Shown: positions 16,605 through 17,771 of the stretch, in pieces
Layout of the letters: each line of letters starts with the position of its first letter
Numbering within the stretch: the stretch's first letter is position 1
From: Candidatus Peribacterales bacterium
Lineage (GTDB): Bacteria; Patescibacteriota; Gracilibacteria; Peribacterales; Peribacteraceae
Reading direction: 5' to 3'
Assembly (NCBI GenBank): GCA_020058765.1
Contig: JAGVDM010000004.1
Coordinates: 1-64,000 of the forward strand
DNA length: 64,000 nt
The notes under the pieces: model-generated
Database searches by the model: none
Told to the model about the DNA's origin: nothing
Seen by the model: the letters and a program-made list of their open reading frames with translations, nothing else
Program-made: the position numbers and the translations under genes

Positions 16605-16708
<104 letters not shown>

Positions 16709-16713
16709 GTGCA

Positions 16714-17124
16714 ATAAAAAAGGGCATTCGCCCAGAGATCGGGGCGAATGCCCGTACCGCAGTACAAGTACTGCGGGTGTCAGGTGACCAACCTGCGAGC
16801 TCCCTGCTCGTGGCACGGAAGTGGGCCGTACCGCCCTGTGTGTTTGTGTAATCGCCCGTTGCCCCGAGCGGGGGTTCCCGAAGGTGCGTTCGGAGACGAC
16901 GCGTGTGTGTTTGTGGTTGTGCGCTGGTCAACGCGCAGATGCAGGGAGAAGCGAGAAGTGACTTGGCGCGAACACCCTGCGGGGTCCGGGCTTGGACTGC
17001 GTCCAAGCGGAGGACCAGGTACCAATGGAACTGCGGAGCCGGAGCCACGCAACCCGCCGGTTTCCTGGTGTCACTTCTCGCTTCTCCCTACAAGGAGAGC
17101 ATCGGTGTTTGCGAATGAACAAAT
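16714..17124 (-). ncRNA. Candidate structured non-coding RNA, about 410 nt, unknown class
   Basis: This interval has a minus-strand promoter (17131-17159), a strong minus-strand terminator (16716-16753) and no credible coding frame. It is packed with inverted repeats: a perfect 20-base stem (16943-16962 with 17070-17089) enclosing a multibranched region that includes CTTGGAC/GTCCAAG nested in GGTCC/GGACC; CCGAA/TTCGG and CCCC/GGGG hairpins; and CCGCAGTAC/GTACTGCGG near 16756-16775. Two CA-rich linkers (ACAAACACACA) flank the middle hairpins. I looked for RNase P, tmRNA and SRP RNA signatures and found none. The class and function are unknown. Confidence 0.7.
16716..16753 (-). terminator. Strong minus-strand intrinsic terminator
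   Basis: Perfect 12-base stem GGGCATTCGCCC/GGGCGAATGCCC (16742-16753 and 16722-16733 read on the minus strand) with an 8-base loop, followed on the minus strand by six T residues (16716-16721). Nothing protein-coding on the minus strand feeds into it, which points to a non-coding transcript. Confidence 0.88.
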
Positions 17125-17130
17125 CCAAAT

Positions 17131-17159
17131 ATTCTACCAGAAACCGGGCTGGTCGGCAA
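17131..17159 (-). promoter_or_regulatory. Promoter of the candidate ncRNA
   Basis: Minus-strand TTGCCG (17154-17159), 17-base spacer ending in TGG, and TAGAAT (17131-17136). Predicted transcription start near 17124. Confidence 0.65.
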
Positions 17160-17186
17160 TGGTCACCCTGCGCTAGGATGGCAGCA

Positions 17187-17771
17187 ATGACGGGCAAACT
17201 CGTCCTCATTATTGGCCCCAGTGGCGTTGGGAAAAGTGTCATTTTGCGCGAGTTGAAAAAGCGTCATCCAGAAATCGTCTTTCCACGCTCAGCAACTACA
17301 CGCCTACGCAGGGCAGGGGAGAGTGACGAGCTCTACAAATTCGTTACGGAAGAAGAATTTGATGCTCTTATTGAAAAAGGAGATCTGCTCGAATGGGCGG
17401 TGGTGCATGGCGGTGCACGCTACGGCACAATCGCATCCGAAATTCTCCCGGCCATTGAGAAGGGGAAAATTGTCATTCGCGAAGTCGACGTACAGGGGTT
17501 TGATAGCATTCGCAGTCATCGCCACTTCCGCGGGAGCGAAGCACTCTATCCACTGCAGTCCATTTTCATCCTGCCGGAGAGCAAGGAGCAGCTCATTGAA
17601 CATATTCGTAAACGTGCACCGATTGCTGGCGAAGAACTCACGCGCAGAATTGCGAGTGTAGAGCACGAGTTGAAGTATGCAGAGAATTGCGATGAGCGTG
17701 TGATCAACCGAGAAGGGAAGATTCGTGAGGCAATAAGTGAGGTAGAACGCCTTTTAGGGCTTCAAGATTGA
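17187..17771 (+). CDS. gmk: Guanylate kinase
   Basis: Phosphorylates GMP/dGMP to the diphosphate. 194 residues from ATG 17187; ATG 17178 is an alternative. P-loop LIIGPSGVGKSV (residues 6-17), GMP-binding SATTRLRRAGESDELYKFVTEEEF and ARYGT, and the lid-region KRAPIAGEELTRRIASVEHEL are present. The GMP site is slightly divergent (family consensus has GxxYxF where this has ELYKF). Family length is about 200, so it is complete. The frame is open upstream, but that stretch lies over the structured RNA and is not coding. Confidence 0.9.
   Translation: MTGKLVLIIGPSGVGKSVILRELKKRHPEIVFPRSATTRLRRAGESDELYKFVTEEEFDALIEKGDLLEWAVVHGGARYGTIASEILPAIEKGKIVIREVDVQGFDSIRSHRHFRGSEALYPLQSIFILPESKEQLIEHIRKRAPIAGEELTRRIASVEHELKYAENCDERVINREGKIREAISEVERLLGLQD

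Follow-up and report, generated by a model that had tools for sequence, protein, structure and literature searches.

A predicted large structured noncoding RNA gene beside gmk in Peribacteria and related Gracilibacteria-type bacteria

The window analyzed in this study, a stretch of 64,000 nucleotides from a Candidatus Peribacterales genome, contains a minus-strand interval between a tRNA-Ala terminator and gmk that raises a simple question: does this interval hold a gene of its own, and if so, what kind of molecule does it encode? The original prediction was that it specifies a new structured RNA, separate from the plus-strand tRNA genes, and this view is borne out by homologues in related genomes, covariation, a conserved promoter and terminators, and negative Rfam searches. 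On comparative sequence evidence, we consider it highly probable that a large structured noncoding RNA is encoded here by a single-copy gene and that it is the founding example of an undescribed family in Peribacteria and related Gracilibacteria-type bacteria. The RNA is approximately 410 nt long in the window and approximately 270 to 610 nt in relatives with a recognized terminator.

Positions 16716 to 17159 of the minus strand constitute a predicted self-contained RNA gene that has a promoter, a 5' boxA-like element, a structured region of approximately 410 nt, and a terminator with a 12-bp stem. The predicted promoter is present, consisting of a -35 element, TTGCCG (17154 to 17159), and a -10 element, TAGAAT (17131 to 17136), which is preceded by TG and therefore of the extended -10 type; TTGCCG-17-TAGAAT (17159 to 17131, minus strand) is the sole promoter-like site of the region, with 0.1 expected in shuffled sequences. 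In most of the 53 family copies, TTG lies 17 nt 5' of the -10 element. The probable start of the transcript is a few bases 5' of position 17124, the end given in the original prediction. The intrinsic terminator (16716 to 16753, minus strand) has a 12-bp stem (16753 to 16722) followed by T6 and, as had been described, lies back to back with the plus-strand tRNA-Ala terminator, which ends at approximately position 16702. On the other side, gmk (17178 to 17771, plus strand), which encodes guanylate kinase, is the divergent neighbor.

The 5' end of the RNA (17110 to 17125, minus strand) carries a boxA-like element, GATTTGTTCATTCGCA, for which the family consensus is TTTGCTCTTTNACA. This consensus or a near variant lies 6 to 8 nt downstream of the -10 element in 52 of the 53 family copies, so that the transcript of the RNA gene qualifies by sequence as boxA bearing; the element is weaker in some other families. 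When the whole genome was scanned for a promoter combined with a boxA, the RNA locus gave the top score (21), followed by a next-best site at 18, with shuffled genomes reaching 17 to 18. A similar motif, TCNTTCACA, precedes 16S in 9 of the 11 rRNA leaders read from family genomes. Among rRNA leaders, loci L120 to L130 carry the element TCNTTCACAGCATCGCAGAGT upstream of 16S, which is boxA-like and has a conserved extension past the boxA.

The minus strand from 16710 to 17124 is predicted to fold with an energy of -197.6 kcal/mol (z = -8.4), which was not equaled by any of 100 shuffled sequences; the claim of dense secondary structure over some 410 bases was therefore upheld. Since the plus strand, too, has a stable predicted fold (z = -5.9), folding energy alone cannot set the strand, which is instead set by the promoter, boxA, terminator, and relatives. 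The case for expression, like that for the strand, rests on the conserved promoter, boxA, and terminator.

All features of the fold lie on the minus strand. The outermost helix, P0, pairs the leader sequence GCTCTCC (17094 to 17100) with GGGAGC (16799 to 16804), which is part of a conserved AGGGAG. Inside it, the 5' arm of P1 (17070 to 17089) forms the perfect 20-bp long-range stem of the original prediction with its 3' arm, GTCACTTCTCGCTTCTCCCT (16943 to 16962). Domain 1, which is carried by P1, comprises P2 (17014 to 17069, in which 17064 to 17069 pair with 17014 to 17019) around P3/P3b, followed by the P4 hairpin (16990 to 17008) and the P5 hairpin (16967 to 16990), the P4 boundary being approximate. 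Next comes the P6 hairpin (16920 to 16937), with the loop TGACCA (16925 to 16930). In the 3' domain, the P7 and P8 hairpins (16853 to 16895; P8 is atypical in the copy from the window) are placed between two A/C-rich single-stranded linkers with the shared character ACAAACACA, namely, linker 1, CCACAAACACACAC (16903 to 16916), which is conserved in alignments A2 and A3, and linker 2, TTACACAAACACACA (16837 to 16851). Past linker 2 are P9 (16812 to 16836), a predicted H-type pseudoknot in which GGG (16834 to 16836) pairs with CCC (16823 to 16825) and the stem is GGTACGG/CCGTGCC, and then AGGGAG. The P10 hairpin (16781 to 16795), with a loop, TGGTCA (16785 to 16790), that would kiss the P6 loop, and an extra 8-bp hairpin (16757 to 16776) 5' of the terminator complete the molecule. 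The boxA-like element, the kissing loop, the pseudoknot, and the A/C-rich linkers are features that the original prediction did not contain. AGGGAG occurs both after P9 (16800 to 16805) and in the 5' arm of P1 (17084 to 17089); the two strands that carry it could pair in competition with the P1 3' arm, which makes a conformational switch possible.

Compensatory changes support P1 to P5, P7, and P8, and both P0 and the P6-P10 kissing loop pass permutation tests. The helix set and the kissing loops were picked partly by eye on sequences that were also used for the tests, and the permutations ignore phylogeny; read in that light, 88.3% of the P1 to P5 cells were paired in 26 distinct sequences, compared to 42 to 51% when the partner strand was slid. 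The alignment behind this figure was fitted to the structure, which favors it; however, a MAFFT alignment made before fitting agrees (85.9% versus 43 to 53%). Changes on both sides were seen in 33 of 50 pairs of P1 to P5, and the number of two-sided cells was 182, compared to 63 in shuffled data, with none of 500 shuffles as high. Covariation was weaker for P5, where 74.8% of cells were paired. For P7 and P8, 95.6% of cells were paired in 52 distinct sequences, with 96 two-sided cells versus 23 in shuffles. The native duplex energy of P0, summed up in 25 copies, was -289.7, compared to -235.5 ± 12.3 for permuted partners (0 of 20,000 as low); the helix is absent in some genera (g18, g34, L003, and L005).

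The P6 loop (NGACN) is complementary to the P10 loop (NGUCN) at 184 of 190 pairs in 38 copies. All five pairs are standard in 32 of these copies, compared to an expected 18.4 (0 of 20,000 permutations), and in 20 of 26 compared to 13.2 when one copy per genus and type was retained. The P6 loops were curated by hand, as automatic detection chose the wrong hairpins in some copies. An earlier permutation test of the longest run in 21 copies was not significant (p = 0.28); it missed the signal because the GAC/GTC core is invariant, and it was the flanking positions in 38 copies that provided it. The five copies that have no P10 (L026, L040, L044, L060, and L061) also have no P6 loop motif. In other families, comparison of the sequences indicates that both kissing loops have changed together and are still complementary: seven copies carry CCGGCUA/UAGUCGG, CCAACA/UGUUGG, CCAAC/GUUGG, CCAAUC/GAUUGG, GACUC/GAGUC, CGACGA/UCGUCG, and UUGCUGG/CCAGCAA, and these loops, which were chosen by eye, have 42 paired positions versus 27.7 expected, with 3 of 5,040 permutations as high. 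Variants of the pseudoknot stem (GGG/CCC, AGG/CCU, UGG/CCA, GUGG/CCAC, GGU/ACC, and GAGC/GCUC) were collected by eye, without a controlled count.

How widespread is this RNA? BLASTN comparison with 59 relatives gave matches chiefly in both P1 arms, and a one-arm P1 pattern allowing up to 3 mismatches matched 51 of 74 family genomes, frequently with a pair of matches on opposite strands that lie approximately 125 to 210 nt apart. Across genomes of 84,980 species, the exact P1-arm pattern was found in 21 stretches, 19 of which were labeled Peribacteria, Peregrinibacteria, or Patescibacteria, so that the family of the window is Peribacteraceae-like. Among 353 class genomes, a covariance model of domain 1 (R1, P1 to P5, built from 18 sequences) matched 32, every one of which belongs to the same family as the window. 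The 3'-domain model (R2) found one copy in 53 of the 74 genomes of that family (Peribacteria), with a second, weak match in one genome, and it gave no match in approximately 280 other genomes of the class or in approximately 275 other genomes of a phylum sample (approximately 550 together, with slight overlap). In some lineages, domain 1 is cut down and P1 is a plain hairpin (L010, L007, L168, and others). The 21 family genomes without an R2 match comprise 5 in which a diverged copy was recognized by eye (G008, G019, G028, G035, and G075), 4 in which the contig ends at the locus, 10 with no recognizable gmk, 1 with no gmk match, and 1 that was not examined. The RNA is present in nearly every family genome in which the locus is readable. 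Neither a recognizable gmk nor an RNA copy was observed in G027, G059, G021, G061, G070, G087, G089, G076, G090, and G091, where the best gmk matches were distant P-loop proteins; G027 is a single contig, and its lack of both may reflect a real loss or a missing stretch.

The same architecture was recognized by eye at gmk in 12 genomes from eight other families (f4, f7, f9, f15, f16, f17, f28, and f29), of which f16 is the least certain, and a model built from eight other-family copies (R3) added L237 and L242. No such RNA was recognized by eye at the gmk loci of f3, f5, f6, f11, f12, f14, and f34. The gmk frames in L250 and L252 (f12 and f14) contain nine and three in-frame TGA codons, respectively, consistent with the use of TGA as a sense codon. 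A further conserved element near the 3' end of the RNA, a long stem around CACCTCTG and GTGYAAAT motifs, was observed in L232, L233, L235, L240, and L248, which belong to other families. The placement of the gene beside tRNAs, which was emphasized originally, holds in part: the examined flank includes a tRNA-Arg and/or tRNA-Ala gene in 17 of 54 loci, which makes the tRNA pair a frequent neighbor, but the constant neighbor is gmk. In 46 copies, gmk lies upstream in divergent orientation, and in two loci, it follows the RNA on the same strand. BLASTN against phages matched the tRNA gene only, and viral contigs contained no exact match to the P1 motif.

Comparison with Rfam 15, including the ROOL, GOLLD, OLE, 6S, and SRP models, gave no match at the gathering threshold apart from the tRNAs, and at E ≤ 10, the window region yielded three subthreshold, chance-level fragments only; the gmk loci of the other families likewise had no match. 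The Rfam search and the search for conservation proposed with the original prediction have thus been carried out, the former giving no confident match and the latter finding homologues and compensatory changes. The absence of RNase P and tmRNA signatures from the locus was also confirmed, as both RNAs are encoded elsewhere in the same genome (RF00010 at G000:C7:82039-82405 and RF00023 at G000:C4:93-493), the match at 16605 to 16681 being tRNA-Ala. When all Rfam models were applied to approximately 618 kb of the 1.17-Mb genome, only tRNAs, 16S rRNA, RNase P, tmRNA, and a SAM riboswitch were detected; the last of these, at L268 19655 to 19764 (G000:C7), is just over the gathering score. We agree that there is no credible reading frame: ATG occurs only at positions 24 and 399 of the 410-nt RNA, and no open reading frame is conserved in relatives, in which the longest range from 13 to 166 amino acids and similarities are mostly among close relatives, as expected, because the DNA itself is similar. 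In the open-access papers searched, no noncoding RNA has been described from these bacteria, and the paper in which Peribacteria were named does not mention such an RNA.

What, then, could the element be if it is not a new RNA gene? The region is GC rich and has a constant place upstream of gmk, as would be expected of chance structure or of a cis-acting gmk 5' region; however, the RNA is divergent from gmk, it has its own promoter and terminator in relatives, gmk is downstream on the same strand in two loci, and covariation far exceeds the controls. This reading is contradicted by the covariation, and we regard it as extremely unlikely. A more serious candidate is a very divergent signal recognition particle RNA. 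SRP RNA is expected in all bacteria, yet the small SRP model (RF00169) found nothing in 14 of 14 genomes of the class, that of the window (G000) included, whereas it detected SRP RNA in 11 of 14 control genomes, and a search of the whole 1.17-Mb genome with an SRP core pattern (up to 3 mismatches) gave unconvincing matches only. The candidate is also single copy, is present in nearly every readable family genome, and has an rRNA-like promoter. Against this, as the original prediction had noted, no SRP signature is apparent: no SRP model matched at E ≤ 10 in the region or at E ≤ 0.5 to 1 in 29 homologous loci, the core CAGG..GGRR..AGCAG was found in none of 53 family RNAs and none of 12 other-family RNAs, and the best-conserved parts (ACAAACACA, AGGGAG, and the kissing loop) are not characteristic of SRP RNA. 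Coverage by the large-SRP model was approximately 618 kb of the genome, so that the remainder may contain an SRP RNA of the large type. SRP identity is unlikely, and we attach very little weight to it.

We propose that the RNA acts in trans. The boxA-like element would recruit NusB/S10, by analogy with rRNA operons, enabling polymerase to read through the dense structure and leading to high RNA levels; we infer from the motif that Nus factors act at this gene. In the fold that sequence comparison supports, P0 closes the molecule, P1 carries the multihelix domain, a predicted pseudoknot lies near the 3' end, and the P6-P10 kissing loop ties both ends of the 3' domain. The locked fold may hold out the two conserved single-stranded A/C-rich tracts (ACAAACACA), to which a single-strand RNA-binding protein or an RNA rich in G and U could bind. 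The function that we favor, tentatively and at well below even confidence, is that of a scaffold or a titrating sponge presenting these tracts. The main alternative, which is possible but unlikely, is an ornate RNA-only homo-oligomer of the OLE/ROOL/GOLLD type. In those RNAs, separate chains are held together by kissing loops and by loop pairs that covary (PMC12286853); the candidate is similarly large and elaborate, with a pseudoknot and a kissing loop, its L6-L10 pairing could be intermolecular, and the AGGGAG repeat (in the P1 5' arm and after P9) could allow strand exchange. However, it has no Rfam homology to OLE, ROOL, or GOLLD, it lies on the chromosome beside gmk and its P1 motif has no exact counterpart in viral contigs, whereas ROOL and GOLLD were described from phages and prophages (PMC12286853), and intra- and intermolecular L6-L10 pairing are equally compatible with the comparative data. 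The long P1 helix with conserved internal mismatches and the strong promoter might suggest a 6S-like RNA that regulates RNA polymerase, or else a base-pairing small RNA, which we consider improbable: the 6S model did not match, the architecture differs from a single hairpin with a central bubble, several lineages have reduced or diverged forms of P1 and its domain but retain the 3' core, and the conserved single-stranded stretches are low-complexity A/C. An Hfq-sequestering sponge like CrcZ would account for the A/C-rich tracts, and L247 has a subthreshold CrcZ match (17.9 bits), but Hfq was found in none of 17 genomes tested, compared to 5 control genomes in which it was detected; this version of the sponge is rejected as almost certainly wrong, and another RNA-binding protein is possible.

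The presence of the RNA in nearly every readable family genome and its rRNA-like boxA suggest a central rather than an accessory role. We place roughly even confidence in the broader proposal that this is a class-wide housekeeping RNA, made under rRNA-type antitermination, whose fold is locked by both a kissing loop and a pseudoknot and whose task is one that no known bacterial RNA has been assigned. Conserved yet unexplained large structured RNAs are rare, and each has tended to open new biology. The shape of this one is kept across many related bacteria, even where the sequence has changed almost completely, and it was recognized at gmk in eight families besides that of the window, within a branch of the Candidate Phyla Radiation. 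The family alignment yields testable predictions, such as helix swaps between L6 and L10 and partners for the A/C tracts, and the apparent lack of a recognizable SRP RNA in the tested genomes of the class raises a second question.

The putative regulation and architecture of this RNA are reminiscent of several known systems. As in rRNA leaders, where boxA is bound by NusB/S10, the RNA begins with a boxA-like sequence: the family consensus, GCTCTTTNACA, matches in its core the gammaproteobacterial boxA consensus, GYTCTTTAANA (PMC5725501). Unlike in rRNA leaders, the element lies 6 to 8 nt past the -10 element of a stand-alone noncoding RNA gene, and no rRNA follows it. RNase P RNA and tmRNA are of similar size, contain pseudoknots, and share the style of a conserved, single-copy housekeeping RNA, but each has its own locus elsewhere in this genome. 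SRP RNA, although expected throughout bacteria, was not located in the searches above, and the candidate has neither the SRP core motif nor a match to an SRP model. ROOL, GOLLD, and OLE are likewise large and elaborate, with pseudoknots and kissing loops, and two of the three have no known function (PMC12286853). The RNA described here has no covariance-model match to these families, including the GOLLD and ROOL RNAs with which it had been compared, and unlike them, it is chromosomal at gmk, is known from one bacterial class only, and has an architecture of its own, built from P0, P1, the L6-L10 contact, and paired A/C-rich linkers.
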